Part shown: in pieces, positions 1 through 20,534 of the stretch
Layout of the letters: each line of letters starts with the position of its first letter
Numbering within the stretch: the first letter of the stretch is position 1
Origin: Candidatus Hydrothermarchaeum profundi
GTDB taxonomy: Archaea; Hydrothermarchaeota; Hydrothermarchaeia; Hydrothermarchaeales; Hydrothermarchaeaceae
NCBI GenBank assembly: GCA_002011125.2
Contig: MTMF02000004.1
Span: 1-23,277 of the forward strand
Length of the DNA: 23,277 nt
Direction: 5' to 3'
Position numbers and translations under genes: made by a program
Notes under the pieces: model-generated
The model's input: only the letters and a program-made list of their open reading frames with translations
Databases searched by the model: none
What the model was told of the DNA's origin: nothing

Positions 1-54
1 ATCCGCAAGGATGGCAAGATAGACCTGAGGTATGCATTCAAGGGGTTGAGGTAG
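1..54 (+). CDS. 3' end of an unidentified reading frame (partial)
   Basis: Frame 1 is open from the window edge and ends IRKDGKIDLRYAFKGLR followed by TAG at 52-54. The basic, hydrophilic peptide looks like a plausible protein tail, but I do not recognise the family, and 17 codons cannot prove coding. The last codons and the stop lie inside the segment shared with the RHH gene at 18441-18526. The frame may therefore have been truncated or fused when that segment arrived. Confidence 0.25.
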   Translation: MRKDGKIDLRYAFKGLR

Positions 55-134
55 CCTAACCCGCGGAGACGCTCCTTAACCTTTTCTTCATCCTCCTCGC
101 TCAGAAAGTACTCCTCTTCCTCGTTTCTGAGATT
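49..134 (-). pseudogene. Remnant of a ribbon-helix-helix (CopG-like) gene, C-terminal part only
   Basis: Positions 49-134 match 18441-18526 almost base for base, with only a handful of substitutions in about 86 bases. The minus-strand reading is the acidic tail EEEEYFLSEEDEEKVKERLR followed by GLGYL, as in the intact gene. The N-terminal DNA-binding half is missing: a TAA lies at 135-137 just upstream of the match. The intact gene's stop codon is also gone, so the frame runs on toward position 1. This is a broken copy of a gene found elsewhere in the window. Bases 135-223 beyond it show no gene I can support. Confidence 0.7.
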
Positions 135-223: not shown

Positions 224-1741
224 TCAAGACAACTTTAAAATTCTGATACATTCCCTGCTGAACACCTCTTTACCCTCAACCCAGTCGTAGCTCTCGGGCA
301 CAAGTGCGCAGGAATCAATGATTACGTAGCTAACATTGAGATTTTTCAGGCAGGCTGTGCTCCTATTCCCCAAGCATACATTTATTTTTCTCTGCTCCTG
401 CGTCTCAAAGCAGTAATCGAATGCAGGGTCGCAGCCTGTTTTCACCATCTTCCTAGTGACGGCGTTCATAGGGTTACCTATCCTCCCATCCAGCCCAGCG
501 TTCAGCGACCAGTTATATGTGATGTACTGCTTCCAGGGCAGGTAGACCACCTCCCCCTCCATATGGTCCAGAACTCTTCCAGCCTCTTTGTAATCCTCGG
601 GGTAGTCTATTGGATGGAGCTGCCCCGCTAGGAGTATCTGCATGTGGTTGAAGTACAGCAGCACGGCAGCCACCACAAGAAGTATGAGCTTAAACCTCCT
701 ATGCGCTTCTACACCACGGGGAATTAAGTAGGTGTAGCCAAGGAGGGTGAAGTAGGCGAACTTGTGGCTATCCCTAAAGGGCTTGAGGTCAAGGTACTGG
801 ACTGAGAGGGCAAGGATTACACCGAGAAAAATAAGGGAGATGAAGAGGATGTTTCTGCTATCTCTGGGCGCGCTCAGAAAGCCGTGAATGGAGAGGTAGA
901 TCAGCATAGAGACAAAGGCTATAAAAACGTAAAAGGGCACTTCCTCGTATATTCTTTCAACCGCACCCTCCCTCCAGAAGCCGTATAAACCTGCGAGCTT
1001 ACTCGCGCTGTTCAGGTCGAGGCTTGGTTTAGGGTAGAAGAATCGCATATGTTGCTCTGTTACCCCTGCGATTGCAACTGGCTTGAGGAGAGGCACGAAA
1101 GCAAGCCAGTACAGGTTCACTAGCAGTATTGCGATGGAGGCTACGCCTATTTCCCTTATTCCCGCCTCCCTTTTTAAGGCTAAGATGCCAGAGTACAGCA
1201 GGAATATAACAGCGTTGAGTATGAAGAAGTGAGCCTGAAACATCGATACGAAGGTGTACGCAAGCGCTAGTTTAAGCGCTTGCGCGCGCGTGGGCACCCT
1301 GTAGTAGGTGAACAGGTAGTACAGAAAAACAGGTGCTAAGACCGTGGCAGCGACCATTCCAAGCTGCCCGGCAGCGGTTATCCTGAGGTAGACAAAGGGA
1401 TTGTAGAGGAGGAGAAGCACGCCGAGGTACCTCGCCGACCGCCTAACCTCCAGGCTTTTGAAGAGAAAAGCGCCGCCTACCAGGAAGCACGCGAGCAGGA
1501 ACAGCTCACGGAATAAAAAGGGAGAGAGCAGCTTGGAGCCCACGACAGCGAGCACCTGGAAGGGCAGGCTCGCCAGCGATGCAGCACCCCAGGTGTTTGC
1601 CCCACTGAAGACAACTGCAAAGTACCTCTCAGGGTACAGCGGGGGCACGCTGTCGAGATATATCAGCGTCCCCGGCGAGAAGAGGAAGTTACCAAAGGTA
1701 AGGAGGTATACCAGCGCTGCTATAAGGAGCGCATACCTCAA
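224..1741 (-). CDS. Polytopic membrane protein, GT-C/YfhO-like (short form)
   Basis: This 505-residue protein is probably an integral-membrane glycosyltransferase of the GT-C fold, or a relative such as YfhO or AftD-like proteins. About ten to twelve hydrophobic helices fill residues 1-375, starting with a helix at about 3-21 and an outward loop containing LIYLDSVPP whose Asp could be catalytic. A soluble tail follows (EGEVVYLPWKQYITYN, then NVSYVIIDS). The same order occurs in the 1079-residue protein at 4471-7710, but this one ends before the sugar-binding-like domains. The start is TTG, not ATG: GGAGGGGTGA lies six bases upstream, and its TGA is the stop codon of the upstream MinD-like gene. 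Only six bases separate the two genes, so they are probably co-transcribed. Donor and acceptor cannot be told from sequence. Confidence 0.65.
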   Translation of the reverse strand: MRYALLIAALVYLLTFGNFLFSPGTLIYLDSVPPLYPERYFAVVFSGANTWGAASLASLPFQVLAVVGSKLLSPFLFRELFLLACFLVGGAFLFKSLEVRRSARYLGVLLLLYNPFVYLRITAAGQLGMVAATVLAPVFLYYLFTYYRVPTRAQALKLALAYTFVSMFQAHFFILNAVIFLLYSGILALKREAGIREIGVASIAILLVNLYWLAFVPLLKPVAIAGVTEQHMRFFYPKPSLDLNSASKLAGLYGFWREGAVERIYEEVPFYVFIAFVSMLIYLSIHGFLSAPRDSRNILFISLIFLGVILALSVQYLDLKPFRDSHKFAYFTLLGYTYLIPRGVEAHRRFKLILLVVAAVLLYFNHMQILLAGQLHPIDYPEDYKEAGRVLDHMEGEVVYLPWKQYITYNWSLNAGLDGRIGNPMNAVTRKMVKTGCDPAFDYCFETQEQRKINVCLGNRSTACLKNLNVSYVIIDSCALVPESYDWVEGKEVFSRECIRILKLS

Positions 1742-2987: not shown

Positions 2988-4484
2988 ATGGACGAACTGG
3001 AGGAGAGGAGAAGGAAGATTAGAGAAAAGATCAAAAGGCGGAGCAGCCCTGAACTTTTCGGCATTGTGCTAGTTGGGTTGATCTTCGCCTTCCTTTTGTT
3101 TACTTCTCTACCCGGCGAGGAGAAAGCGGAGCAGGCACCCGCTACTCCAGCGCCAGAGAAGGCAGGCGTTGAGCAGAAAACTGTCCAGCAGATGCCTCCA
3201 CCTGCTCAGAAACCCGCTGAACAAGCTGCGCAAGAGAAAGAATCACCCGAAAAAACAGCACCAAGCGGTAATGTACCACCGCCAAGAATCGTACTCTCCG
3301 AACCCGAGAACACCACCTACACCACCTCCCTTCCACCCGTGAAATTCAGGGTTTATGGTCCCTACCTAGACACCATATTGCTAAGCATAGACGACGGGGA
3401 GAATATCTCCATACCCCACGATGGCTACATCGCCGAGGTGGAAGCTTCAAGCACCTTTGAGATGTTGAACGAATCCTTCGAAGAAGATAACTCTCTGTCA
3501 GCCTGGTCTGCACCCAAGCGGGGATATACAATCAGCATAGACAGCGAGAGCTATGACGGGAAACGCTCCCTCAAGGTAACAACCACAAGAACCTCAAAAG
3601 ACTGGAGCTGGATTTCCAGAGAGATGGACGTCATCCCCGGAGCGAAGTACAGGATAGTAACGCACGTGAAGGCGGAGAATGTAAAAGGACTGCACATCGC
3701 CATAGACGCTTTCGACGGAAGCAAATGGTTTAGATTAACAAATGTTCCAAGCGGCACCGACGGAACCTTTGACTGGAGGGAGTTTTCAGCTACGGTAAAC
3801 ATCCCAAATAATGTAAGAAAAATAAAAATCCATCTCAACCACGGCTGGTCCCTCGACGGGAGCAACCCAGCTACCGCCTGGTTTGACGGCATAGAGATTC
3901 ACCCATTAACGCGGGTACAAACTTTGAATGAGAAGAAAATCCTCCTACTTCAAAATTTCAGTAACGGCTTACACAACTTAACCCTCTTTGCCAACAACAC
4001 CCTTGCTAATGCCACCTCTCGCACAATCTACTTCACCATCAACGCCACCTCAGAGGAAAAAGAGAAGACCTATACCATCGGCGACACCAGTAGAGCAGGA
4101 AGCCTTGAGGTTACGCTTAAGAGATTTTACGGTATGGTCGATGTTGAAATAGTCAAGAACACGCTCTCAGAGACCTATGCTAGAGTGGACATAGAGGTGA
4201 AAAACATTGGCAATAAAGAGGCTAAGCTTCAGTTCACCCCTTATAATCCAGTGCTAATAGATAACGAGGGAAACACCTACGACTACACCTACGTCAAGAT
4301 AAAGGACGCCGCTGGGAGGTGGGGTACACATCCAGACCAGCTAAAGCTTGATGTCCTCTACCCTGGCGCCACGAGAAAGGGCGCCATCTTCTTCAAGCCA
4401 GATGTCAGCATTAAAGCGAAGAACCTGACCTTAGTGATATACCTGAACGGCGAAAAGTACGAGTTTAAATTTAAGAGATGGTGA
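2988..4484 (+). CDS. Membrane-anchored extracellular protein with CBM-like and DUF4352-like domains
   Basis: This 498-residue protein has a charged N-terminus (1-20), one transmembrane helix (about 22-41, FGIVLVGLIFAFLLF), a Pro/Ala/Glu/Gln spacer to about 100, and then an extracellular region. Residues about 155-305 look like a jelly-roll carbohydrate-binding module: NESFEEDNSLSAW at the start, DGKRSLKV, and AWFDGIEI at the end, the usual CBM4/9-like frame. Residues about 365-498 look like DUF4352, with RVDIEVKNIGNKEAKLQF followed by the LIDNEGNTYDY turn. Several NxS/T sequons suggest glycosylation. It is the only plus-strand gene in the first 20 kb and is divergent from the MinD/GT-C pair. 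Likely role: binding or anchoring glycan at the cell surface. Domain names are by eye. Confidence 0.7.
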   Translation: MDELEERRRKIREKIKRRSSPELFGIVLVGLIFAFLLFTSLPGEEKAEQAPATPAPEKAGVEQKTVQQMPPPAQKPAEQAAQEKESPEKTAPSGNVPPPRIVLSEPENTTYTTSLPPVKFRVYGPYLDTILLSIDDGENISIPHDGYIAEVEASSTFEMLNESFEEDNSLSAWSAPKRGYTISIDSESYDGKRSLKVTTTRTSKDWSWISREMDVIPGAKYRIVTHVKAENVKGLHIAIDAFDGSKWFRLTNVPSGTDGTFDWREFSATVNIPNNVRKIKIHLNHGWSLDGSNPATAWFDGIEIHPLTRVQTLNEKKILLLQNFSNGLHNLTLFANNTLANATSRTIYFTINATSEEKEKTYTIGDTSRAGSLEVTLKRFYGMVDVEIVKNTLSETYARVDIEVKNIGNKEAKLQFTPYNPVLIDNEGNTYDYTYVKIKDAAGRWGTHPDQLKLDVLYPGATRKGAIFFKPDVSIKAKNLTLVIYLNGEKYEFKFKRW

Positions 4485-7400
4485 GCTTTTTCTTTAGAGC
4501 TTCTAAGTATCCCTTCACCCTCTTCTCCAGCCTTCTCGCCCACCCGTCTCCTCTTTCTCTCCTCCAGTCGTAGAAGAGGTAGCCAACACAACCAATAAAT
4601 GTGATTACGGAGATTATTAACCCCCTCTCAAACCAGTCCTGAGGTTTGTACCTTATTACTATTTCAAGATTACCAGTCTCATTTATCCAGAAGCCGTTTA
4701 TCACAGAGTAGAGCGGGATTGATTTAACAACCTCAATCTTCCTGCCATCTCTGTAAACCCTCGCCTCCCAGAGAGGATCATAAGCTTCTGCAAAGCTGAG
4801 CATGAAGGGTTTTGATGCATTTAATTTTACTTTCCACAAAGTAGGGTTAATTTTCGTATAATTTATTACTTCTGCGGGTTTTTCCGTTACTTCGAAGAGC
4901 TGTTCTATTGTTTGATTTGTTTCTGTTGAATATAGCCAGATAGTGTCTAAAATAGTATTACCTAACGAAATTATTTCAATCTTGCGTTCCCCTTCGTTGA
5001 GATAGAATATTGGAGTATATGTGAAGTTTAGAGAGCTTGAATTTAAAATGAAGGAATGATTTCCAATCTTAACTTTAAATTCTCCTATCCCATTTAGAGC
5101 AATTCTATAGCTTCCATTCTTAAAAACCTCTATATCTTGCCATACCTTGTCATTCTTACCCAATAACAACACCTCTCCGTTATTAGTACTCACATTAACT
5201 TTGATCATCTCTGTATTATTACTTCTGTATAGGTCAGATTCTGATTTAAATAAATATATTAATTTTTTGTTTTGTAAAAGTTTTCCAATTTCTTTTTTAG
5301 CTTTAAAACATTCTTTCTCAGGAATTATTACAAATAAATTGACAGCATTACTTCCTTCTATATTCTCTAGTTTAAGTGTATATTTGCCCTTAGTGAGATA
5401 AATTTTTCCAACTTTTATCCAAACAAATTCTGTTTTGGTTTCGTCTGTTGTATCAATTTTCTTCGAAAAATTGGCTACGCTTATTTTTATCTCTCCACCT
5501 TTGGTGTTCTTCAGAACTCTTGTAAGAATTAGATAATTCGTGTTTTTTTCTATTATTATAGGTATTTCTAGTGAATCTTGATAGTTAGATATGAAAATAA
5601 AACCATATGATATTCTATAGCTAAATTCCCATTTTTGATTAGGAAAAGAATTTATAAAACCATGCCAAATTCCGTGGTGGGGATCAGTTATATATGCTCT
5701 CGACCATTTATCTCTTTGATAAAATCTCGAGTATTGAGCAACTTCAATAATATAATCTTTAGGTATAAATGGCACAGCTAAGTCAATATTATTTTTAAAA
5801 GGTGTTAAAATTATTTTATTTATATAAGACTTATTTAGTAGATTTATCTTAAAAGCATCAGCAAAAAGTATCGGATAATTATTCAGGTATAATATATGTT
5901 TACCGGTTTCTAATCCACCAAAAACTAAAATTGGATCATTTTTTATGCTAATATGATCATCATAATTTTTAATCTCAAATATATAAATAGGATCAAAACT
6001 AGCTACTAATTTAAGATTAGGATTATTTCTCAATTTATATAATGTATCATTAAACTTCTTTTTATACTGAGGTATATCATTATGTAAAAATATATATTTT
6101 ATGTTTAGAGGGGATATAAATTCATGTAAAGCATTGATTTGATCTCTAACAAGAAGAGAATTGTATCTGAAAGATAATGTATATGCATAATAATGTGTCA
6201 TAATATTGTTTCTAGCAAAATATGTTGGTTTTGATGAACCATAATATGTTAGAGCATCAGCACTTTTCCCTTTGGACCATTCAGGCTGATAAGGCCCCCA
6301 AAACTCTGGAATCCATATTACCTTAAAATCATCATCTTGAAGTTGTAGCCATTCATTCGCTTTTTTATATCCTTCTGGTATCTCAATTGGATATAATCTT
6401 CCGGCAACATCACCAGTAAGTAAAGGAGCCGAGGAAAGTAAAATTAAAAATAAAGTAAATAATATTACACAATATCTTATAAAATTTCTATATTTAACAT
6501 CGTATAACTTGTCTAGAATACTTCTAATAGAGAAAGTTAACAGAATAGATAAAGATAATACTACTATTTGGTCTGGAATTCTAGTAGTTCTAAATAATCT
6601 TCCAATAAAATGATTAAATGGCGAATCAAGAACAAACCAGTAAATAAAGTTTTTCGATAGTTTTCCCAAACCAGCAAATAACCCTACAACAATAAGAAAT
6701 AAAAATAAAAAAAACAAAACATATCTATTTTTGTTGTGAAAAAATATAGATAATAAAGCTATCATAGTTAATATTAATCCTGTTGGGACAACTACATATA
6801 TTAAAAAGTCGAAAGGAACATGATCAATATACTTTGGAAGCTGAAAATGAGATGATGCTCTCATAAGATTGATTATATTTCCATTGCTCCAAGTAATATC
6901 AACAGCAGGTTTTGTAAGAGCTGTAGCAACCCCCACTGTAGTACTAGCTATAATACTGAAAAAGAGATAGCCTCCTAGTAATGAAAATACTAAGCATGAA
7001 ATAACAAATATATTTAAACCATTTTTAAGGTTATTGATAAATTTTTTAAGGTTATTATCATACGAGAAAATAAGTAAATAAGGTAATATCACAATTAAAG
7101 GAGCAATTAGATATCTCTGATCAAATGCCGCTGCCTCTACCCACCAGAACCCAGATAATATTGCATACCTATAGCCTTTTTCATAAAGTGCTTTTAAGAA
7201 GAAAAAAATTATAAGTGGAAAAACTGAAAAGGAATATTGTATCCCTATATAGTGTGCATCTCCGACCCTAAAAGATAAATTTAGCATATACATAAGCCCA
7301 GAGAGAAAACAAGCAACAAAACTATTTACAGATTCTTTATTAAAACCAGCAATTTGAAGCATATATCTTGACAAAATAAACATTGAAAAACCAGATAAGG

Positions 7401-7710
7401 TGCAGAATAAAATATATTCCAACTTTATTAATGTTGAAACATCATACCCAAAAATTTTTCCCAAAAAGTAAAATATAGAATGTGGAGAGTATATCCATCC
7501 ACGAGTTGGTTTACTTAGCATTTCGTGCCATGATGGTTCATATACTACATTTTTCAAGAATATATCAAGAGTAGGAGCAAAACTTCCTGCATCTCCAATA
7601 ATTATACCTGGCTTAATAAAATTACGGGATATAAAAAGAGATATAAATAAATATAACCAAAATATATACAACAAATATATAGTTTTGACTTCAAATTTTA
7701 AATTTTTCAT
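4471..7710 (-). CDS. Large GT-C-like membrane protein with C-terminal sugar-binding-like domains
   Basis: In this 1079-residue protein, residues 1-430 hold about a dozen transmembrane helices with a first outward loop GDAGSFAPTLD and then SPHSIFYFLGKIFG, reminiscent of AftD/YfhO-type GT-C proteins. A soluble part follows (EGYKKANEWLQLQDD, then LNIKYIFLHND). Beta-rich domains come next; one, about 700-800, ends like CBM6/35 modules (WIKVGKIYLTKGKYTLKLEN). The protein ends with FAEAYDPLWEARVYRDG, one last helix (ISVITFIGCVGYLFYDW) and a Lys/Arg-rich cytoplasmic tail. The start is supported by AGGAG eight bases upstream. The tail overlaps the convergent gene by 14 bases. Base composition changes inside the gene: AT-rich upstream, ordinary in the last 350-400 bases. 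Likely an outer-face glycosyltransferase; substrate unknown. Confidence 0.7.
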   Translation of the reverse strand: MKNLKFEVKTIYLLYIFWLYLFISLFISRNFIKPGIIIGDAGSFAPTLDIFLKNVVYEPSWHEMLSKPTRGWIYSPHSIFYFLGKIFGYDVSTLIKLEYILFCTLSGFSMFILSRYMLQIAGFNKESVNSFVACFLSGLMYMLNLSFRVGDAHYIGIQYSFSVFPLIIFFFLKALYEKGYRYAILSGFWWVEAAAFDQRYLIAPLIVILPYLLIFSYDNNLKKFINNLKNGLNIFVISCLVFSLLGGYLFFSIIASTTVGVATALTKPAVDITWSNGNIINLMRASSHFQLPKYIDHVPFDFLIYVVVPTGLILTMIALLSIFFHNKNRYVLFFLFLFLIVVGLFAGLGKLSKNFIYWFVLDSPFNHFIGRLFRTTRIPDQIVVLSLSILLTFSIRSILDKLYDVKYRNFIRYCVILFTLFLILLSSAPLLTGDVAGRLYPIEIPEGYKKANEWLQLQDDDFKVIWIPEFWGPYQPEWSKGKSADALTYYGSSKPTYFARNNIMTHYYAYTLSFRYNSLLVRDQINALHEFISPLNIKYIFLHNDIPQYKKKFNDTLYKLRNNPNLKLVASFDPIYIFEIKNYDDHISIKNDPILVFGGLETGKHILYLNNYPILFADAFKINLLNKSYINKIILTPFKNNIDLAVPFIPKDYIIEVAQYSRFYQRDKWSRAYITDPHHGIWHGFINSFPNQKWEFSYRISYGFIFISNYQDSLEIPIIIEKNTNYLILTRVLKNTKGGEIKISVANFSKKIDTTDETKTEFVWIKVGKIYLTKGKYTLKLENIEGSNAVNLFVIIPEKECFKAKKEIGKLLQNKKLIYLFKSESDLYRSNNTEMIKVNVSTNNGEVLLLGKNDKVWQDIEVFKNGSYRIALNGIGEFKVKIGNHSFILNSSSLNFTYTPIFYLNEGERKIEIISLGNTILDTIWLYSTETNQTIEQLFEVTEKPAEVINYTKINPTLWKVKLNASKPFMLSFAEAYDPLWEARVYRDGRKIEVVKSIPLYSVINGFWINETGNLEIVIRYKPQDWFERGLIISVITFIGCVGYLFYDWRRERGDGWARRLEKRVKGYLEALKKKLTIS
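4487..4497 (+). terminator. Oligo-T stretch after the 2988-4484 gene
   Basis: CTTTTTCTTTA follows the TGA of the plus-strand gene by two bases. Archaeal termination commonly uses T-runs without a hairpin. The run also encodes the Lys-rich tail of the convergent minus-strand gene, so it may be coding sequence only. Confidence 0.3.
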
Positions 7711-7846
7711 AACTATTACTCCTTTATACTATAACAAGTAAATCTGCTGAAAAAATTTTTGTGGTTTAACTCCATTTGGCACAACCACAACGCTGATTAT
7801 ATGAAAAGTTTTTTTCATGTCGTGGCCGATATTGGTTGATGCCAAG

Positions 7847-7909
7847 TGTCTTGGGCAGCCGTTAAGTTGACTGATCTTAAGACCCTATTGCTGATTGTTG
7901 CCCAAGACA
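7847..7909. repeat. 11-base inverted repeat with a nested 5-base stem
   Basis: TGTCTTGGGCA (7847-7857) pairs perfectly with TGCCCAAGACA (7899-7909), 41 bases apart. Inside, TTAAG (7862-7866) pairs with CTTAA (7876-7880) across 9 bases. It lies in the only ordinary-GC part of the gap, upstream of the dead transposase. It could be an element end, an RNA fold or chance. Confidence 0.4.
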
Positions 7910-8048
7910 ACCAAAACCTTGGGCTTCGAACCCTCATGGATATTTGTCCTTTGCTCAGACCTGACATCGCGACACCTGCACAGGAGGTGGTCGTTATATA
8001 TGTAGGTGTTGGATGTGCATGAAAATTTGTGCTATGCCACGTTTATAG

Positions 8049-8490
8049 ATGAATTTAATTGAAGAAACGTTGAAATTTTCCAACATCGGAGGAGGATGAG
8101 TCAGTTTGTATCAGCGCTTAGAAGCGATGATTCAGTTGTAATGGAGGCAAAATCGGAAAGTAAAGAAAAACTGAGCAAATCTGTCACAACTCCTATAAGC
8201 AGGGTAGCTTTAATGCTCATGTATTAGTAGCATTATTTTTCATTATTTTTCTCTCTTGAGTTTAAAGCGTGATTAGTGACTTAAAGGAGAATGGAAACCT
8301 TCAGATTTTCGCAGGTGGTGTAGATTTAGATGTGGAGCAGATATACGAATCTCTGTCGCGATTCAATGGGAGGACTTTTATCAACTTTCTCTATAGCGTT
8401 CAGAGTAGCGTTTACTTTCGAAAGATGAGGTCACCAGCGAAAATTGAAGATTTCGTCCCTCGGACTTAAATCTCTTCAGAGGCTAAAAAG
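8049..8490 (+). pseudogene. Decayed IS transposase, N-terminal part
   Basis: Three frames join into one protein-like series. ATG at 8049 gives MNLIEETLKFSNIGG. Then 8096-8227 encodes SQFVSALRSDDSVVMEAKS and onward to PISRVALMLMY, with TAG TAG at 8225-8230, followed by HYFSLFFSLEFKA. Then 8269-8469 gives ISDLKENGNLQIFAG, VEQIYESLSRFNGRTFINFL and SVYFRKMR. A last shift gives DLNLFRG near 8465-8485. The order (helical N-terminus, LSRF..FINF segment, a DLN..FR piece) is what I remember of archaeal IS4-like transposases. The DDE core and C-terminus are gone. At least two frameshifts and two stops make it dead. Family assignment is from memory and moderate. Confidence 0.55.
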
Positions 8491-8693
8491 CAAGCTATAG
8501 TAGGTATTCCTAGGGTAGGAAGGTTCATTATCCTTTCCCGACGCTGAGAAACAAAAAACTGAAAAATTGATAAATTCATCGCTTTGATCGTACTTTTTCT
8601 GGGGACAATAATTTCTCATAAAATAAAAAACAGAAACTACAGACGCTGGCTAAGAGATATAAGATTTCTTTAATTAAATCTACACAATTATTT

Positions 8694-9803
8694 TTAGTAA
8701 TCACTATTTATAACCTCCGTATATAACATGTAAGTTTCTTTTGCTGTATTTTTCCAGGAGAACTTTTCTACTTGTTTTATTGATTTTCCTTTTATTTTTT
8801 TTCTAACAGTTTCATCAATTAGTAGTGTAATAATAGAGTTAGCAAAAGATTTATAATCATTAGGTTCATGGAGTATCGCAGCATTTCCAGTAATTTCAGG
8901 GATCGCATATTTGTTGGAAGCTATAACAGGAGTTCCACATGCCATTGCTTCTAATATTGGGAATCCAAAACTCTCATGATAACTTGGAGAGAAGAAAACT
9001 TTAGCTCCACTATATAAAGCAGGTAAATCTTCTTGAGGTGTCCAACCTAAAAATATTACATCTCTTTTATTAAGCTTATATTGGTTGAGTTTTTTCTCAT
9101 ATTTTTCTCTCCATTTATTACCAGCAATTACAAGTTTTATCCCATTAATCTCTTCTTTTACTAATCTAAATGACTTAAATAGCGTATTAGGATTCTTTAT
9201 TTTTGAATATACACTAACATGGAAAATATATGCTTCATTAATTCTATATTTTGCTTTAATCATTTTCACTTCCTCCAATGTTCGAGGATAAAAAATTGAA
9301 TGATCGATACCTTCATATATAACCTTTATTTTTTCTTCTGGACATTTTAAATAATTTGCTAAGGTATTTTTTATACTATAAGAAACTGCAATTATTCTAT
9401 CAAAGAATTTTATTACTTTAGGTTCTATAAATCTTTTCAACGCTTCTATAGTCTTGTTGTATCCAAGTTCAGGCTCTACCCACCATATGTCTCCATGTAC
9501 GGTTACAACTTTTTTACATTTTATTTTATTTACAAAGATTCTCCAAGACCAAGGTATAGCATTAAAATGAATAATATCAAGATTTAATTTATTGATAAAA
9601 TATTCACCTAGTAAAGGGGATTTTGGTATTATTGCTTCTTCGTTTTCCTTATATATTTTATGATAGCTCTTTTTATGATGAATTAAAACAATTTCTATAT
9701 TTCTGAACATTTTCTGTAGATTTTCAATTAACTTTATTTGATAGAGACTCGGTGCTAATTTTGGATATTTATCTAAATAGTGAGTATAGAATCCTATTCT
9801 CAT
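8694..9803 (-). CDS. GT4-family glycosyltransferase (GT-B fold)
   Basis: A cytoplasmic sugar transferase using an NDP-sugar with retention of configuration, as for the family. The N-terminus is MRIGFYTHYLDKYPK and the acceptor-domain segment is VTVHGDIWW. The donor domain has RIIAVSYSIKNTL, VIYEGIDHSIFYPR, and the EX7E site ESFGFPILE followed by AMACGTPVIAS. The length (369 residues) is usual. A GTG at 9812 would add three residues. I prefer ATG at 9803 because AGGTG lies six bases before it; the GTG is itself part of that site. It is the last gene of the tightly packed AT-rich group 8694-12987 and is separated by 77 bases from the methyltransferase. Donor and acceptor are not predictable. 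Confidence 0.9.
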   Translation of the reverse strand: MRIGFYTHYLDKYPKLAPSLYQIKLIENLQKMFRNIEIVLIHHKKSYHKIYKENEEAIIPKSPLLGEYFINKLNLDIIHFNAIPWSWRIFVNKIKCKKVVTVHGDIWWVEPELGYNKTIEALKRFIEPKVIKFFDRIIAVSYSIKNTLANYLKCPEEKIKVIYEGIDHSIFYPRTLEEVKMIKAKYRINEAYIFHVSVYSKIKNPNTLFKSFRLVKEEINGIKLVIAGNKWREKYEKKLNQYKLNKRDVIFLGWTPQEDLPALYSGAKVFFSPSYHESFGFPILEAMACGTPVIASNKYAIPEITGNAAILHEPNDYKSFANSIITLLIDETVRKKIKGKSIKQVEKFSWKNTAKETYMLYTEVINSDY

Positions 9804-9880
9804 AAAGTGCACCTTTTTGAAATTTATTAATATTCTAATTCAAATAGATTATTATCAAGATTTTATGCTTCACTAGATTT

Positions 9881-10636
9881 TCATATCTTTTCACTTTTCT
9901 TCAAGAATTCTTTTATGTCGAAATATACATCAGCCAAAGTTACATTAGGAATATCTCTTTTTTTACAAATAATAATTATTCTCTCTGACAATCTTGGAAA
10001 TATATTGGCTATAAATCTACTAATAATATTATTAAAAGAATAGATATAGGTACCTTTAATTCGTTCTATCTTAAACCCATTAAACCTTAAAACAGCTTTT
10101 AATATTCGAAGTGTATAATCTCTAACATGGATAGATTTATATCTTGCAGATTGCATAGGAGGCAAATCTAAGAAAATTTGCATGAACCACGAAGCTGGGT
10201 GTGAAACGTTTGGCACATTGATTATAAGCTTCCCATCATTTTTTAACACTCTATGGATTTCTCTCAATAAATTGTCAGGATCAATTATATGTTCTAGTAA
10301 ATCATTAATTATCACAACATCGAAAGTATCATTGTCAAAAGGCAATTTTTCACTTTCCACATCGCATAAATATGTTTTATAACCTCTTTTCTGCGCTATT
10401 TTTAGAGCTTTTTCAGATATATCAATTCCATACACATCAATTTTGGGAATTCTTACAAATGATTCTAATAGTTGTCCTCCCCCACATCCAACATCTAAGA
10501 TTCTAAACGTCTTTTCTTTATTTCTATTTGTAACAATAGATCTCACAATAGATAAAACTACGATGTCTGACATTTCTTTGTGTTCTTTAACCGGATATTT
10601 TTCGAATACTTTTTTTTGAAATTGGGAATTTTTCAT
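9881..10636 (-). CDS. Class I SAM-dependent methyltransferase
   Basis: A 251-residue methyltransferase of the UbiE/Methyltransf_11 type. Motif I is RILDVGCGGGQLLES (about 45-59), the acidic ribose contact is Asp in VYGIDISEKAL (about 72), then CDVESEKLPFDNDTFDVV and the post-II segment NDLLEHIIDPDNLLREIHR. The tail carries HVRDYTLRILKAVLRFNGF, common to methyltransferases in sugar clusters. Its ATG abuts the TAA of the upstream AlkP-family gene with no spacer. GGAGGT (10645-10650) within that gene's end serves it, so translation is probably coupled. Likely role: O-methylation of a sugar in the glycan made by its neighbours. The substrate is inference. Confidence 0.9.
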   Translation of the reverse strand: MKNSQFQKKVFEKYPVKEHKEMSDIVVLSIVRSIVTNRNKEKTFRILDVGCGGGQLLESFVRIPKIDVYGIDISEKALKIAQKRGYKTYLCDVESEKLPFDNDTFDVVIINDLLEHIIDPDNLLREIHRVLKNDGKLIINVPNVSHPASWFMQIFLDLPPMQSARYKSIHVRDYTLRILKAVLRFNGFKIERIKGTYIYSFNNIISRFIANIFPRLSERIIIICKKRDIPNVTLADVYFDIKEFLKKSEKI

Positions 10637-12049
10637 TTATATATACCTCCTAATTAATCTTCCAACATCCCACACACATTCTACTTTTATTGGTGGTTTA
10701 AAATTACTAATAAATATTCCATAAAGTGCATGATCTCCAAACCTATTTTCAATATTTTCAAAATAATTGCTATTTATATTATAATCCATTATTTCATAAC
10801 CATCATTTGGTAATAAAACAATTTCTGGGTATTCATACAAATTTATATCTAATTCATCCTTTGACAATACGTTTTTAAAAACTTCAGTACCTGTTAGTGG
10901 ATCTTTAACTTCTTTCAATTTTAATTTTAGTTCATTTACTAGATTAATGACTTCTCCATCAATAACACAACCTTGTGGTTCTCTTCCTTTTATATTTATC
11001 CTTATTAGTCCATTTGAGCCTCTGTAGAAGAATGCTTTTGTATTGGTCCAATCAGCGTTAAATAGATATTGATGTGAACTACTTGGTATAATTTTAAGCA
11101 AATGCTTTGTAAATTTACTATGCTCTATTTTTCCGAGAAATCCTTTTAAACCTATCTTTTTCATATAATTTCTTACTTTTTCAGCATCAATACCTAGTTT
11201 TAGGAGGGTGTTAGAATTAGATCTTAGCTTTAGATAACCCTCTTTCTCTAACCATGTATTTACATAAAATCTCCTATATACTCTCCTAAATCCGTGATCT
11301 GAAGCTATTATAACTTTTATTTCTTCTTTATTTTCACTAATAACTTCTTTTAGGATTTTACCTACTAATTTATCAACTCGTTTGTAGTGTTGCTCTACAA
11401 ATTCTTTATTATCAAATGCAAAATGTTGAATTACGTCTAACGATCTTAAAACAATTGCTCCAAAATCCCATTCATTCTCATTTAAAAGATAAACAAATAG
11501 ATCAACCTGATCATTTTCTGTCTTAATAATATTTTGCTCTAGTTTGTAGATACTAATTCCCTGTTCTAATTTATCCTCACCAAGATCAACGTCAAAATGT
11601 GGAAAATTTCTGATTATAAACCTCTTTAAGGAAGGGGGGTAAACGAAATTAGAAGTTTTTCCTGGAGAACCTAAACCAGTTATCATGATACCATTAATTC
11701 TCTCTGGAGGATATGAAAATGGAATATTCACAATAATAGATTTTTTGTTTTTCTCACTGAGCATATTCCAAATTGCTCTGACTTTCCTATCTTTTGACGT
11801 GACAGGCCTATAGAAGTATTCCCCTTCTTTTTGCTTTAAAAATCCCCAATTGCCATGCTTATGGGAAGGGACACCAGTAAATATTGATGTCCATGCTGCA
11901 GGAGAAAGGGGTGGTATTGTACTCATTAACCGTGAAAATTGACCGTTCTCAGATATTTTTGCAAGATTTTTTAGTTCGTTATTGTCCAATAATCTTTTTG
12001 TTATGTTATAATCGGCCCCATCTATTCCTATTAGCAAGACTTTTTCCAT
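10637..12049 (-). CDS. Alkaline-phosphatase-superfamily phosphodiesterase/phosphotransferase
   Basis: A 470-residue metal enzyme of the type I phosphodiesterase/nucleotide pyrophosphatase group. The first metal site is LLIGIDGADYN (Asp10, Asp13). The expected nucleophile Thr54 lies in SPAAWTSIFTG. Later ligands are in LRSLDVIQHF and VIIASDHGFRR, with a final GDHALYGIFI. No signal peptide or membrane helix is visible, so it is probably cytoplasmic. TTG at 12064 is possible, but ATG at 12049 has GGAGTGG six bases ahead and gives the usual MEKVLLIGIDG start. It overlaps the GT2 gene by 19 bases and abuts the methyltransferase. In a glycan operon it may cleave or transfer a phosphate-linked group; that is inference. 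Confidence 0.88.
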   Translation of the reverse strand: MEKVLLIGIDGADYNITKRLLDNNELKNLAKISENGQFSRLMSTIPPLSPAAWTSIFTGVPSHKHGNWGFLKQKEGEYFYRPVTSKDRKVRAIWNMLSEKNKKSIIVNIPFSYPPERINGIMITGLGSPGKTSNFVYPPSLKRFIIRNFPHFDVDLGEDKLEQGISIYKLEQNIIKTENDQVDLFVYLLNENEWDFGAIVLRSLDVIQHFAFDNKEFVEQHYKRVDKLVGKILKEVISENKEEIKVIIASDHGFRRVYRRFYVNTWLEKEGYLKLRSNSNTLLKLGIDAEKVRNYMKKIGLKGFLGKIEHSKFTKHLLKIIPSSSHQYLFNADWTNTKAFFYRGSNGLIRINIKGREPQGCVIDGEVINLVNELKLKLKEVKDPLTGTEVFKNVLSKDELDINLYEYPEIVLLPNDGYEIMDYNINSNYFENIENRFGDHALYGIFISNFKPPIKVECVWDVGRLIRRYI

Positions 12050-12987
12050 TTTAATCCACTCCAAATTCCGTTTAAATAACTCATTGCTATCTTTAACCTC
12101 TCCCTCAATGGCTTTTTAGATCCAAACAAAATCACTCTCAAATAGTATAAAGCGAATAACCAGTTGAAAATGAAAATGAAAAAGAAAAATTGCCATAATT
12201 TTGAGTATTTTTTGTGGAATATAATTCTATTTCTCCCGCAATAATATGCTCTATATTCATTATGACAGTGGAACAATCTTGCCTTATCCTTTTCTTCCTC
12301 TGGCAAAGGAATGTCATGCCAAACTTTTGCTTTTGGATTAAAAATTATTTTATATCCTGCTCTTCTCACTTTTTCCCCATAATCTGCCTCATCATAATGT
12401 ATAGGAAAATCTTTTTCATTAAATGGTCCTACTATATCTATAACTTCTCTTCTTATCATGAAGGCATTAAGAATATCGACAGATTCTATCAGATCTTTAA
12501 ATGGTATATTGACAATTTTTTCTGCTCCTATTTTTTTTGTTAATGAAGTAATCATATTTCTTCTGACTCCAGCACACCAAATCCTATTAGGTTGCTTATA
12601 ATAATACATTACTGGTGCAATAACCCCTATTTTTGGGTATATTTCTAATATTTTAACTAATTGAAAAATACAACTTTTATCAACAATGTTATCGTCATCT
12701 ATTAAAAAAATGTACTTACCATTAGAATTTTTGATACCGACATTCCTAGAACCTGCAAGAAACTTTTTTTTATCATTTCTAACTATCTTAATTTCAGGAA
12801 AATTTTTTTTTACCTCTTCATAAGTCCCATCAGTTGATTCATCGTCAACAACAATTATTTCTAACCTCTCTTTTGGATAATCACTATTAAAAATTGAATT
12901 AATTAATCTAATCAATTTTTCCTTTCTATTATATGTTGGAATTACAACTGAAACTAGGGGATAACCTTTAGACTCATTCGATGACAT
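12031..12987 (-). CDS. GT2-family glycosyltransferase, rhamnosyltransferase-like
   Basis: A 318-residue GT-A enzyme. It has VSVVIPTYNRKEKLIRL at the N-terminus, IIVVDDESTDGT, AGSRNVGIKNSNGKYIFLID and the metal-binding DDD at about 97-99. HYDEADYGEKVRRAGYKI holds the likely catalytic base. A hydrophobic C-terminal segment (FFFFIFIFNWLFALYYL) suggests membrane association, as in many polymer-building GT2 proteins. TTG at 12993 is possible, but ATG at 12987 has GGTGA six bases upstream. It overlaps the GT4 gene by 14 bases and the AlkP gene by 19. It is the first gene of the AT-rich block, so the composition step coincides with its start codon. Confidence 0.9.
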   Translation of the reverse strand: MSSNESKGYPLVSVVIPTYNRKEKLIRLINSIFNSDYPKERLEIIVVDDESTDGTYEEVKKNFPEIKIVRNDKKKFLAGSRNVGIKNSNGKYIFLIDDDNIVDKSCIFQLVKILEIYPKIGVIAPVMYYYKQPNRIWCAGVRRNMITSLTKKIGAEKIVNIPFKDLIESVDILNAFMIRREVIDIVGPFNEKDFPIHYDEADYGEKVRRAGYKIIFNPKAKVWHDIPLPEEEKDKARLFHCHNEYRAYYCGRNRIIFHKKYSKLWQFFFFIFIFNWLFALYYLRVILFGSKKPLRERLKIAMSYLNGIWSGLKWKKSC

Positions 12988-14050
12988 TCTCAATCACCCT
13001 TTCAAACTCCTCGGTGCTTCTATCCCAGTTAAACCGCTTAGCCCATTCTATTGCGTTCCTGCTCAGGCGCAGTCTGAGCTCTTCGTCGGTTAAAAGCTTC
13101 ACCATCGCCTCGGCAAAAGTTTGGATGTCGCCTCTCTCTACGAGCAAGCCGTTGTACTCGTGCTTTATGGAGTCTCTTAAACCCGGGATGTCGTAGCCCA
13201 CTGCAGGCGTGGCGCAAGCGTTGGCTTGTGTTACTACTTGCCCCCATCCTTCTCTTACCCCAGGTACCGCGATAATCCAAGCTTTCCTTAGCAGTTCCAC
13301 CTTGGTTTTGCCGTTTACGAATCCGAAGAAATTTACATCCTTGGCTTTGTCCTTGAGCTTTCTTCGCAGGTAGCCATCCCCAACCATCCAGAGCTGAGCA
13401 TCCTTAACCTCTTTCTTCACCAGCCTGAATGCCTCGACAACATCCTGTGGCTTTTTTGCCCTCTTCATTCTGCCCAAGAAGATTACTGTAGGGCGCTCGC
13501 TTTTCTTGGGTATGGCGTCGAGGGGTTTAACGTCTAAGCCGTTGCGCACGATGAAGACCCTCTTAAAGCCTAGCTGCTCTAGGTCGTGCTTCGTTGACTC
13601 TGAAACGGTGATGGTGGGTACGCTCCGGTAATGGCTGAGCCAGTAGTTTTCAAGAAAGTAGTACCCTATGATGCTTACGGGAAAATGGGTCTCGTAAAAC
13701 CAAAACTCCCTGGCGAGCTGGTGTATCAGAGCGATAATTTTTTCCTTCGCAACGAATTTGGGGGTGAGGAATGGCCTGGTGTTGATCTCGTCGATTACCA
13801 CGTCGAAGCGGTTACCATTCTTCCTGTAGAATTTCTTCGCCTTCGCGTAAACTGTGTATTTTCCACCATATCTGAGCACCTTAACTCCGTCCAAACTCTC
13901 CTCCTTTTCACATCCCTTAAACTCAGCGGTAAACAGCGTTACGGAGTAACCTTTCTCCACCAGCCTTTTTGCTATTTCATGGGTGTAGACCTCTGCACCG
14001 CCCGCTTCTGGATTTTTTATGTCCCGCCAGTTAAACCATAGAATTTTCAT
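12974..14050 (-). CDS. GT4-family glycosyltransferase with an altered EX7E motif
   Basis: A 358-residue GT-B enzyme: MKILWFNWRDIKNPEAGGAE at the start, TITVSESTKHDL, FIVRNGLDV, VIFLGRMKRAKKPQDVV, LWMVGDG, then VREGWGQVVTQANACATPAVG and IPGLRDSI. In the family's EX7E site the first Glu is present (about 267) but the second position (about 275) is Gln, where most relatives of this VREGWG type have Glu. Many divergent GT4 proteins tolerate changes here, so loss of activity is not certain. ATG at 14050 is preferred over TTG at 14065 (AAGGCG upstream). Composition is ordinary, unlike the next gene, whose start lies inside this gene's last 14 bases. Confidence 0.9.
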   Translation of the reverse strand: MKILWFNWRDIKNPEAGGAEVYTHEIAKRLVEKGYSVTLFTAEFKGCEKEESLDGVKVLRYGGKYTVYAKAKKFYRKNGNRFDVVIDEINTRPFLTPKFVAKEKIIALIHQLAREFWFYETHFPVSIIGYYFLENYWLSHYRSVPTITVSESTKHDLEQLGFKRVFIVRNGLDVKPLDAIPKKSERPTVIFLGRMKRAKKPQDVVEAFRLVKKEVKDAQLWMVGDGYLRRKLKDKAKDVNFFGFVNGKTKVELLRKAWIIAVPGVREGWGQVVTQANACATPAVGYDIPGLRDSIKHEYNGLLVERGDIQTFAEAMVKLLTDEELRLRLSRNAIEWAKRFNWDRSTEEFERVIENVIE

Positions 14051-14930: not shown

Positions 14931-16196
14931 TTATAACAAAGCGCTCCTCTCAGGGATACCCGCTCTCCAGGTATAAGCTAGGCTCGCAATGAGGAGAGCA
15001 AGGTTCGCAAAGAGAAGCACCTCCACCATGGCTAAGGGTGAGGAGTGGAAGACTAACAGGAGGAAAATCTCAAGAAAGGTGAAGCCCGCGAAGAGCGCGA
15101 CATAGCGCATGTTTCTTACCGCTAGGTGATAGTTGAGTATAATTACCGAGAGGGAGAAGAAGAGCATGGCTAAGCCGTAGGGGCCAACCAAAGGCAGAGC
15201 TTCGACGTAGCGGGAGCCAAATAGAATTACTACAAGGTGGGGGAATAAGAGGTAGGCGGCAACCACTGAGCCAGAGAGCAGGGAAGCGTAGGCAAGGCTT
15301 CGCTTGAGCACTATACTGGTGTCTTCTCCTCTAGCATGAATCTCGGCAATCATTGGGAACATCACCGCATAAATCGCCGAGGGGAAGAAGAATATTATCT
15401 TGCCAAGCACACTTGCCGAGGTGTAGAGTCCCGCCTCGCGGGCGGAGAAGAAGTACTTGGCGAGCACCACGTCTAGGTTTGCTGGAACAGAAAAGCAGAA
15501 CATTGCAAGCATTACCGGCGCGGAGTAGGAGTAGAAGGCAGAGAAGTTAAAGCTTGGTTCATAGCTACTCCGCCTGATGTAGGGTGCGATGAGAAAAAAG
15601 GAGATAAACAGGGCGACCAGCGTGCCTAAGGCAACGCCTAGAAGGGCGCCAGTAACTCCGTAGCCTAGGGTAACAAAGGCAATGCCGGAGACGAGCTTGA
15701 AGAAGGCATTGGAAACGTTGAGCATTCCCATGGCAAAGAAACGCTTTAAGCCGCGGAGCACACCGCCGTTAATCGGCGCAACCCAAGCGAGGAAGATAAT
15801 AAATGCGAGGACCACCACGGGCTCAGCGTCGTGAATTTTAAGCAGGGAGGCGATACTTTTGCTCGCGAGCAGGAAGAGCAGCGCAAGGGTAAGCCCTATG
15901 ATTGCAACCCGCTTAATAGCGCCCAGAACAAAAAAACCTATCTCTTTACCCTCAGCTATGAACTTGGAAACAAAGTTCGTAGCGGCGGTGGAGAGCGTCT
16001 GGGAGATCACGCCTATCATGTAAAAAATCGCAAACAGGGCGCCGAAGATGCCATACTGCTCAGGTCCTAAAGCCCTGCCCATGTACACCTGGTATACGTA
16101 GTTCAGGGTGTTGGTCACGAGGGAGGCGATGAACATCACACTGCCATGCCTCAAAAGCTCATCCTTAAGTAATACCTGAGAAAATTTCATTGCCAT
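14931..16196 (-). CDS. Oligosaccharide flippase, MOP superfamily (Wzx/RfbX-like)
   Basis: 421 residues with about twelve transmembrane helices in the arrangement of polysaccharide translocases. It has the N-terminal signature RHGSVMFIASLVTNTLNYVY then MGRALGPEQYGIFGALFAIF, ATNFVSKFIAEG in the first cytoplasmic loop, and a second half starting YSAPVMLAMFCFSVPANLDV and VVLAKYFFSAREAGLYTSA. It should move lipid-linked sugars from the cytoplasmic to the outer face. The ATG has GGAGG 11 bases upstream; a second ATG two codons later is possible. It lies between ManC and the DPM1-like gene with short gaps (80 and 71 bases), consistent with one transcription unit. Confidence 0.92.
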   Translation of the reverse strand: MAMKFSQVLLKDELLRHGSVMFIASLVTNTLNYVYQVYMGRALGPEQYGIFGALFAIFYMIGVISQTLSTAATNFVSKFIAEGKEIGFFVLGAIKRVAIIGLTLALLFLLASKSIASLLKIHDAEPVVVLAFIIFLAWVAPINGGVLRGLKRFFAMGMLNVSNAFFKLVSGIAFVTLGYGVTGALLGVALGTLVALFISFFLIAPYIRRSSYEPSFNFSAFYSYSAPVMLAMFCFSVPANLDVVLAKYFFSAREAGLYTSASVLGKIIFFFPSAIYAVMFPMIAEIHARGEDTSIVLKRSLAYASLLSGSVVAAYLLFPHLVVILFGSRYVEALPLVGPYGLAMLFFSLSVIILNYHLAVRNMRYVALFAGFTFLEIFLLLVFHSSPLAMVEVLLFANLALLIASLAYTWRAGIPERSALL

Positions 16197-16276: not shown

Positions 16277-16288
16277 TTAAAAAAAAAG
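16277..16288 (-). terminator. Oligo-T run at the end of manC
   Basis: On the minus strand the last codons read through nine consecutive T before AATG. Archaeal polymerase can stop at such runs, so this may be a leaky terminator that lowers expression of the flippase and downstream genes. It also simply encodes the Phe-Phe tail. Confidence 0.3.
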
Positions 16289-17650
16289 CTTAAGCCTCCC
16301 GTACTCATCCTCAAACCTTTCTATGTCGTCCTCTTGGATGTACTCTCCGGTCTGGATTTCAATAAGGTGGAGGTTGACTTTGCCCGGGTTTTCTAAGCGG
16401 TGCTTCACAGATTTAGGTATATATATGCTCTCATTCTCGTGCACGAAGACTTCCACGAGCTTGCCATTCTCCTCTCTGGTTACCTTGGCGGTGCCTTTAA
16501 CAACAATCCAGTGCTCAGCCCTGTGATGGTGCCTCTGCAGTGAGATGCTTCTCCCAGGGTAGATGCACAGCCTCTTGACCTTGTAGCGTTCCCCATCTTC
16601 CAGCAGGGTATAATATCCCCAGGGCTTGTGCACTGTGGTGTGAATTTTAGCTTCTTCTCTGCCCTCGGCGAGCAGCTCTTCAGCTATTGCCTTAACCTCT
16701 TCTGACTTTTCCTTGCTGGCTACTAGGAGAGCGTCCTTTGTGTCTATTATTGCCAGATTTTCAACGCCGAGACAGGCGATAAGGCGGTCGTCTCCATAGA
16801 TTAGACACTCCTTAGCGTCCCTGAGTATAGCTTTGCCCTTTACAGCGTTTCTCTTGGCGTCTTTTGGCATAATCTCGTAAACACTTTTCCAGTTCCCTAT
16901 GTCCTGCCATCTGCCGGAGTAGGGCATTACTGCCGAGCGAGAGGAGCGCTCCATTATGGCATAGTCTATGCTGATACTGGGCAGTTTCTCGTAGTCATTC
17001 AGAAGCTCCTCATAGCTGTGCATATATCTGGCTATCTCGGGGGCATGAGTTTTGAACTCTTCCATGAGCACAGAAGGAGAAAAGAGGAAGATGCCTGAGT
17101 TCCAGAAACAGCCCTCTTTTATTAGTCGCTCTGCCTTCTCCCGAGAGGGCTTCTCAATGAATTTCTCTACTCTGTAGCCGGTGCTCAGAGGTTCGCCAGG
17201 CTTTATATACCCATAGCCGGTAGCGGGATACCTTGGATTGATTCCGAAGGTTACAAGGTGCTCTTTTGCAAGAGTCTCTGCTTTTGCAACCACATCAAAA
17301 AAATCACGGCTCAGAACATGGTCGCTGGGCATGGCGAGGAAGCTTTTATCTCCATAATTCTCGGCAATGAAGAGCGAGGCTAAAGCTATTGCAGGAGCGG
17401 TGTTTTTTCTATGGGGCTCCAGAATTATATTATCCTCAGATACAATATCGCCGATTTCATCTCTCACATTAAAGAGGTGCTCTCTGTTGGTGGCAACCAC
17501 TATCTCGTCGGCATGCTCTTTTGCAAGTTCAGCAGTACTCCTGAGCAGGCTACTACTTCCATTCAGAGAGAGAAACTGCTTTGGATAAAGCTCTCTGCTC
17601 AGTGGCCAGAGCCTTGTTCCACATCCCCCTGCAAGTATAAGTGCTATCAT
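16277..17650 (-). CDS. manC: Mannose-1-phosphate guanylyltransferase / mannose-6-phosphate isomerase
   Basis: Bifunctional enzyme that isomerises fructose-6-phosphate and mannose-6-phosphate and makes GDP-mannose from mannose-1-phosphate and GTP. The nucleotidyltransferase domain starts MIALILAGGCGTRLWPLSRE then YPKQFLSL, with FLAMPSDHVL, GYGYIKPGE and VEKFIEKPSREKAERL. A type II PMI cupin occupies about the last 110 residues (VHKPWGYYTLLEDGERYKVK, SISLQRHHHRAEHWIVVKG). The length (about 457) is typical. An ATG three codons earlier (17659) exists, but AGAGG is nine bases before the second ATG, and the second start gives the usual MI..ILAGG opening. It leads the glycan locus and supplies its donor sugar. 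The next gene upstream is 227 bases away, so a promoter before it is likely, though no clear TATA box stands out. Confidence 0.95.
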   Translation of the reverse strand: MIALILAGGCGTRLWPLSRELYPKQFLSLNGSSSLLRSTAELAKEHADEIVVATNREHLFNVRDEIGDIVSEDNIILEPHRKNTAPAIALASLFIAENYGDKSFLAMPSDHVLSRDFFDVVAKAETLAKEHLVTFGINPRYPATGYGYIKPGEPLSTGYRVEKFIEKPSREKAERLIKEGCFWNSGIFLFSPSVLMEEFKTHAPEIARYMHSYEELLNDYEKLPSISIDYAIMERSSRSAVMPYSGRWQDIGNWKSVYEIMPKDAKRNAVKGKAILRDAKECLIYGDDRLIACLGVENLAIIDTKDALLVASKEKSEEVKAIAEELLAEGREEAKIHTTVHKPWGYYTLLEDGERYKVKRLCIYPGRSISLQRHHHRAEHWIVVKGTAKVTREENGKLVEVFVHENESIYIPKSVKHRLENPGKVNLHLIEIQTGEYIQEDDIERFEDEYGRLKLFF

Positions 17651-17835
17651 GTTATTCATCCTCTATGTTCTAAATCGCAAAGAATGGATCAATCGTTGAG
17701 GGCAGGGATTACAATTGAGACTCTTTCCATTCTCAACCCCCATTGGGTGCATTATATTTCATGAAAACTTTACCTAGGTGAATTACTCTCTAACCGATTC
17801 AAAGGATGTAATGCGCTTCTATAGCCCAAGCTACC

Positions 17836-20471: not shown

Positions 20472-20534
20472 AACACCCACATCCCATTTATGGGGTAGCG
20501 ACGTCTCCTGTGTATATGCCTTTTATGTATTCGG

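Follow-up and report, generated by a model that had tools for sequence, protein, structure and literature searches.

Probable replacement of an AT-rich glycan-assembly cassette within a conserved gene frame of an archaeal contig

Gene content and composition of the locus

The stretch of DNA analysed here (the window) is the complete 23,277-bp contig C4 (MTMF02000004.1) of a metagenome bin filed as Candidatus Hydrothermarchaeum profundi (the host bin, G000), and its centre is occupied by an AT-rich cassette of genes predicted to assemble a glycan. Measured in 500-bp windows, GC content passes from 46-50% to 23-35% between ~4.75 and 13.0 kb (lowest 22.8%), the highest value within the stretch, 39.6%, lying at a non-coding patch near 8 kb. 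The cassette (5.3-12.93 kb) has a mean GC of 29.8%, the flanks 48.4% and the whole window 41.8%; the cassette genes have a GC at third codon positions (GC3) of 0.19-0.24, most glycan genes of the flanks one of 0.53-0.65. A first-pass annotation, made from the sequence alone, had described such an AT-rich stretch within a richer locus; the stretch is real and the difference holds, although the quoted values of 20-27% and 52% were somewhat too extreme.

Throughout, the window is compared with a sister locus (L002, contig MTLP01000015.1, filed under the metagenome-assembled genome (MAG) 'Thermococcus sp. JdFR-02'), with a donor-like genome of another phylum (G085) and a second genome of the same genus (G105), with a Thermococcales-like genome (G048) and, within the host's order, with G002 and with G018 and G016, which belong to one genus of another family. 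Two full-length loci of the window's lineage were compared, the window and L002, which represent different species (~80% DNA identity) with one genome per species. GC of the host bin was taken from eighteen sampled 20-kb stretches and that of G085 was likewise sampled. Left and right follow the minus strand, the left flank being that of higher coordinates.

The cassette genes lie in the order GT2 glycosyltransferase, AlkP-family phosphodiesterase, methyltransferase, GT4 glycosyltransferase and a 1079-aa GT-C-like protein, all on the minus strand:

5350..12928, minus strand: AT-rich cassette, probably exchanged; blastn matches to L002 end at 5349 and 12929; 29.8% GC
12031..12993, minus strand: GT2 glycosyltransferase (PF00535, 1.5e-31); the left breakpoint falls ~60 nt into the gene
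10637..12064, minus strand: AlkP-superfamily type I phosphodiesterase-like enzyme (PF01663, 2.5e-34)
9881..10636, minus strand: S-adenosylmethionine-dependent methyltransferase (PF08241, 2.6e-24)
8694..9812, minus strand: GT4 glycosyltransferase, GT4b (PF00534, 3e-37)
7711..8693, no strand: patch of 0.98 kb without a long open reading frame (ORF), 37.8% GC
5380..7710, minus strand: variable N-terminal part of the GT-C-like protein, 28% GC; 217 bits to G048 and 46 bits to L002
4471..5379, minus strand: constant C-terminal part of the GT-C-like protein, 35.3% GC; the right breakpoint is at its start

This content (two glycosyltransferases, a methyltransferase, an AlkP-family enzyme and a GT-C) is as first annotated. 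The GT-C assignment, for which no family matched, is based on length and a hydrophobic N-terminal part; the DPM1-like synthase and the flippase of the left flank are named by homology. A sequence search of the PDB with the AlkP and GT-C-like proteins returned no matches. The patch at 7711-8693 has no match in its own genome, in a six-frame Pfam scan or in the compared loci.

A sister locus with the same frame and a different middle

A search of the genome collection gave one close relative of the locus, L002. It is collinear with window positions 217-20489 at 71-81% DNA identity, over 20 kb in all: 76.5% for the genes of the MinD-like ATPase and a 505-aa protein, 77% for the end of the GT-C gene, 81% for the left-flank GT4 glycosyltransferase (GT4a), DPM1-like synthase and flippase, and 76% for a surface-type protein. 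Between these conserved parts, window 5350-12928 and L002 8539-16458 have no DNA match by blastn. The L002 middle encodes a GT2, a GT4 and a GT-C N-terminal part of its own, together with an FkbM methyltransferase and an AlkP-family protein. These are the same kinds of function at 17-31% identity to their window counterparts or none, and at 32% GC the L002 middle is likewise AT-rich. The comparison that the first-pass annotation had proposed between strains, made here with a locus of another species, finds flanks that are conserved and syntenic around a replaced middle, and not the same AT-rich genes in synteny. Within the sister cassette, at L002 11593-12685, lies a transposase (HTH_32 and rve domains) broken by several stops, at a place comparable to the window's non-coding patch.

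Both edges of the replaced segment fall inside genes. At the left edge, the GT2 gene begins with 62 nt of which 58 are identical in L002, which exceeds the 81% identity of the flank (P ~0.006 against an 81% rate), and similarity then stops. On the right, the two GT-C-like proteins share 17-30% identity up to about residue 720 and 60-85% past residue 780, with 71% protein identity over residues 760-1079 and 77% DNA identity. This C-terminal part is AT-rich yet belongs to the conserved frame. A G002 contig carries it next to DUF4352 and MinD genes before stopping near residue 683, and the closing 144 aa of the protein are found at 66-71% identity in G048 and G085. Since the breakpoints lie within coding sequence, a swap brings in another GT2 and makes the GT-C-like protein a chimera, its N-terminal part new and its C-terminal part kept.

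A donor-like lineage in another phylum

The cassette is closer than its flank to a distant lineage. G085, with a GC content of ~29% that equals that of the cassette, has the gene order DPM1-GT4a-GT2-AlkP-GT4-methyltransferase-GT-C-flippase and matches the window at 73.6% DNA identity over 10653-13048 (2425 bp), and again over 4547-4941. In 100-nt bins, identity to L002 stays mostly at 0.8-0.9 on the left side of 12.93 kb and drops to 0.4-0.5 beyond this point, where identity to G085 rises from ~0.5 to mostly 0.6-0.86. For the AlkP protein, identity is 75% to that of G085, at most 36% to any in the host's order and 26% to that of the sister locus, as against 44% between the window and G085 for GT4a. 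The GT2 is 58% identical to those of G048 and G085 and 31% to that of the sister; G048 has the same frame, and in both the GT2 and the GT-C N-terminal part it stands nearer to the window than the sister does. Bit scores to the compared loci are accordingly reversed between cassette and flank genes, and the trees conflict: AlkP places the window with G085 (support 100) and the sister apart, GT4a places the window with the sister (support 100), and DPM1 likewise puts the window beside the sister.

The genus of G085 and G105 is probably Methanocaldococcus, as judged from the phosphoribosyl pyrophosphate (PRPP) synthetase of G105, which is almost identical to PDB 1u9y, a structure that we take to be the Methanocaldococcus jannaschii enzyme. 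The GT-C-like gene of G085 (L187, 3427-6794) seems to be split across two frames near its C-terminal part, by a frameshift or a sequencing error.

Likely replacement of the cassette within a fixed frame

Given this composition, mosaic structure, breakpoints and donor-like relative, we consider it likely that a glycan-assembly cassette was replaced by recombination inside a fixed gene frame, the source being AT-rich archaea of other phyla or one shared with them. The left frame consists of the surface-type protein, a 120-aa protein, ManC, the flippase, the DPM1-like synthase and GT4a, and the right frame of the GT-C-like C-terminal domain, a protein with DUF4352 and carbohydrate-binding module (CBM) domains, the MinD-like ATPase and another GT-C-like protein. 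Of the piece that came in, the GT2-AlkP part is nearest to a Methanocaldococcus-like genome. Because no recombinase or end repeats were found, homologous recombination in the shared gene ends is the likely route. The exchange reading of the first-pass annotation is thus supported by the L002 comparison and by the finding of a donor-like lineage.

Several points weigh against this reading. Neither a recombinase nor a mobile element was found, and at the right edge similarity changes gradually, with no sharp step. G085 is a relative of the donor and not the donor itself. In G048, the GT2 is about as far from that of the window as its GT4a is, so that which locus changed is not certain. The comparison is between species, and a claim of exchange within a species has no base in these two loci. 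An AlphaFold2 model of the GT-C-like protein, built from two sequences, has a mean predicted local distance difference test score (pLDDT) of 33, too low for the model to be of use. The enzyme roles, the glycan, its surface location and the selective agent are all predictions.

The frame genes are the following:

18681..20480, minus strand: PGF-pre-PGF surface-type protein (TIGR04213, 86 bits, cut-off 28); 75% to L002
17878..18240, minus strand: 120-aa protein without family, conserved beside ManC; 73% to L002 and 81% to G016
16277..17659, minus strand: ManC, mannose-1-phosphate guanylyltransferase/mannose-6-phosphate isomerase (TIGR01479, 526 bits, cut-off 373)
14931..16196, minus strand: Wzx/PST-type flippase, left flank (PF01943, 9.2e-18); 82% to L002
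14083..14859, minus strand: DPM1-like polyprenyl-phosphate sugar synthase, left flank (PF00535, 1.9e-32; PDB 5mlz, 9.9e-21); 79% to L002
12974..14065, minus strand: GT4 glycosyltransferase GT4a, left flank; 83% to the sister, 56% to G048 and 44% to G085
2988..4484, plus strand: DUF4352 protein with a CBM_4_9 domain, right flank (PF11611, PF02018); 54% to L002
1748..2800, minus strand: membrane-anchored MinD/ParA-like ATPase, right flank (PF01656, 2.6e-21); 84% to G018
224..1741, minus strand: 505-aa protein, GT-C-like by length and neighbours, right flank; no Pfam family; 84% to G018 and 76% to G014

ManC, whose closest relative is in G016, is absent at the matching L002 position (4365-4736), where a 123-aa ORF sits. 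The DUF4352 protein may have undergone a second, small domain swap: its CBM_4_9 domain (window 3456-3954) stands where L002 has a different domain, and one stretch of the G048 GT-C-like protein is 43% identical to this CBM region. An 84-bp sequence that resembles the end of an antitoxin-type gene occurs twice in the window (49-132 and 18441-18524; 94% identical), with further copies at L002 2641-2715, at host C9:1239764 and in several members of the order. A repeat pair (22216-22311 and 23116-23238; 86-90% identical) surrounds a UPF0175 and PIN gene pair, which PADLOC labels PDC-S70.

Genomic origin of the contig

The flanks, whose composition the first-pass annotation had called ordinary, are foreign to the bin in which they were filed and fit a lineage of ~50% GC of their own. 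The host bin has 38.5% GC, with all eighteen sampled stretches between 34 and 42%, and the right flank is nearest to G018 (83% DNA identity over 2.6 kb), a genome of 55% GC. This agrees with published values for Hydrothermarchaeota, presumably the phylum of the host bin: those of that site have ~50% GC, except JdFR-18 with 39%, which belongs to a second family (PMC6775978; PMC5369317). We conclude that the window contig probably derives from a relative of ~50% GC and was misbinned. Tetranucleotide z-scores failed to separate host from flanks, so that the grounds for this conclusion are GC, the phylogeny of the flanks and the sister contig.

The sister contig has a similar history. It is placed between GrpE and Pelota genes, and its Pelota is 62% identical to that of the host bin and 42% to a second Pelota in JdFR-02; since it is nearer to the former and JdFR-02 holds that second gene, the contig appears to be misbinned in JdFR-02. 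The idea that L002 is a Thermococcus strain was dropped, the RNA polymerase of JdFR-02 being 86% identical to that of G048 and 62% to that of the host, in a bin with two Pelota genes. Another JdFR-02 contig (G081:C27, L122) has the same design, a 30% GC centre between 49% GC flanks, and there a 79% identical ManC end and a homologue of the 120-aa protein border another AT-rich cassette. The L002 and C27 contigs, with flanks of ~49% GC, both look foreign to JdFR-02, and this MAG is probably contaminated.

A cassette of 30% GC in DNA of 50% GC brings the contig mean to ~42% (42.3% for the L002 contig) and may draw such contigs into bins of 38% GC, so that the AT-rich cassette may itself have misled binning. 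Contigs with low-GC cassettes are therefore a practical trap, which seems to have caught two unrelated public MAGs.

The alternative is that the contig was binned correctly and that the 38.5% GC host gained the whole 23-kb locus or holds it as a separate replicon, which would be compatible with cassette exchange. We regard this as unlikely. In its favour, flank tetranucleotide z-scores correlate with those of host segments (0.39-0.68) in line with the host's own range (0.40-0.73), contig C4 brings no duplicated single-copy marker, and the end of host contig C8 holds a virus-like segment of 48% GC. Opposed to these are the uniformly low GC of every sampled host stretch, the 83% identity of the flanks to a genome from another family, and a sister contig that is chromosomal (GrpE, Pelota) and itself misbinned in JdFR-02; a circular plasmid was rejected, as the contig ends show no terminal overlap indicating a circle. 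The gene of the 505-aa protein is single copy in the host bin.

Two further loci of the host bin were noted. The C8 segment (L128, G000:C8:120001-135018; ~48% GC in a 38% GC genome) encodes small membrane proteins, a 916-aa secreted-looking protein and a nucleoside triphosphatase, and is possibly a virus-like element. On C16 (L103, 1376-9608), restriction-modification-type genes are followed by a class II prokaryotic Argonaute (PDLC02381, 1.4e-214) and its SIR2 partner (PDLC02408, 1e-128).

Other explanations of the cassette

That the cassette is a mobile element inserting by its own integrase or transposase is very improbable. The broken transposase (HTH_32, rve) in the sister cassette and the toxin-antitoxin genes and repeats near the contig ends speak for it, but the cassette edges fall within homologous coding sequence, in keeping with homologous recombination, and carry no integrase, replication gene, att site or terminal repeat (integrase, replication genes and terminal repeats were looked for at 5.35 and 12.93 kb). 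Viral contigs searched for relatives of the GT-C, GT2 and flippase yielded none.

We give still less credence to an assembly chimera in which an AT-rich fragment of a co-occurring archaeon was joined to a fragment of 50% GC. For it speak the origin from a metagenome bin, the resemblance of the cassette to DNA of a 29% GC genome and a contig composition that does not fit the bin; however, L002, which was assembled independently in another project, shows the same design with nearly the same left junction (58/62 nt identical), both junctions lie within intact ORFs, and the cassette is just 74% identical to the donor-like genome.

An old resident made AT-rich by local mutation bias or selection, without exchange, would explain why cassettes of other loci and phyla (C24, C27, G048) are likewise ~30% GC and why the conserved GT-C C-terminal part is itself AT-rich, but it is scarcely credible for middles without homologous DNA between ~80% identical flanks, with reversed similarities, conflicting trees and 74% DNA identity to another phylum.

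Predicted function and a wider model

With replacement of the cassette as the preferred reading, the locus may work as follows. ManC would provide GDP-mannose, the DPM1-like enzyme would charge a polyprenyl carrier, the cytoplasmic glycosyltransferases and methyltransferase would assemble the variable unit and the flippase would export it, after which the GT-C-like and AlkP-family enzymes might add or trim residues outside. Exchange of the cassette would then alter the glycan that viruses or partner cells encounter. The adjacent PGF-pre-PGF protein (TIGR04213), a putative surface glycoprotein acceptor near the cassette, suggests a cell-surface setting. The earlier labels 'serotype', 'surface' and 'mannose-based' are best read as predictions of this kind; the sister locus is without ManC at the matching position.

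More tentatively, vent and subsurface archaea of several phyla (the window's lineage, Thermococcales and Methanocaldococcus-like methanogens) may draw on a common pool of AT-rich glycan cassettes, which would enter one and the same frame, between DPM1-GT4a and the GT-C C-terminal domain, by homologous recombination. That domain would be both a constant platform for interchangeable catalytic parts and a recombination anchor, and cross-phylum glycan switching could be a general archaeal strategy, probably an antiviral one.

Comparison with known systems

Bacterial capsule and O-antigen loci have conserved flanks with a flippase and an AT-rich variable centre of glycosyltransferases and modifying enzymes, which is exchanged through the flanks. 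The window locus shares the conserved flanks with a flippase and the AT-rich variable centre with what is generally known of these bacterial loci. It differs in being archaeal, in its DPM1-like and GT-C-like enzymes, in its chimeric GT-C-like frame gene and in the other phylum of its donor-like lineage; among the window proteins a flippase (PF01943) is present and no polymerase family of the Wzy kind was matched.

Three-part glycosylation of the Gtr/YfhO type, found in serotype-converting systems, combines a polyprenyl-phosphate-sugar synthase, a flippase and a specific GT-C. The window may be arranged alike, with a constant DPM1-like synthase and flippase and a specific protein taken as GT-C-like from its length and hydrophobic N-terminal part. 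Its flippase is Wzx/PST and not GtrA, and its GT-C-like protein has no known family and varies in its N-terminal part alone. No match to the AglB/STT3 oligosaccharyltransferase, the mark of archaeal N-glycosylation (agl) clusters, was found among the window proteins, to which this search was limited.

The nearest archaeal parallel is the alternative N-glycosylation clusters of Haloferax (Shalev et al. 2018, PMC5867893), which vary among close relatives and lie far below their genome in GC. Their authors compared them to bacterial serotypes and named viruses as a possible driving force. The window cassette is also of low GC (29.8% against 48.4% in the flanks) with a replaced middle. The Haloferax clusters frequently contain genes for orc1 and homing endonucleases and differ among members of one genus, whereas the window exchange crosses phyla and has its edges inside two genes of a fixed frame; neither orc1 nor a free-standing homing endonuclease, frequent but not universal in Haloferax clusters, was found among the window proteins. 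Genomic islands of Haloquadratum walsbyi hold glycosyltransferases and S-layer proteins (cited in PMC5867893) and, going by this brief description, resemble the window in placing variable surface-glycan genes beside surface-protein genes; a cross-phylum donor is not stated for them there.

Low-GC variable glycosylation clusters are thus already known in haloarchaea, and the new features here are a donor-like match in another phylum, edges that lie inside genes and a GT-C-like protein that is a chimera. The exchange can be traced at base level and across phyla, and it swaps half of a membrane glycosyltransferase-like protein, so that surface-glycan switching in uncultured archaea, together with the presumed pressure of viruses, becomes testable from metagenomes. 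Unrelated archaea appear to trade the genes of their probable surface sugar coats much as bacteria do in capsule switching.

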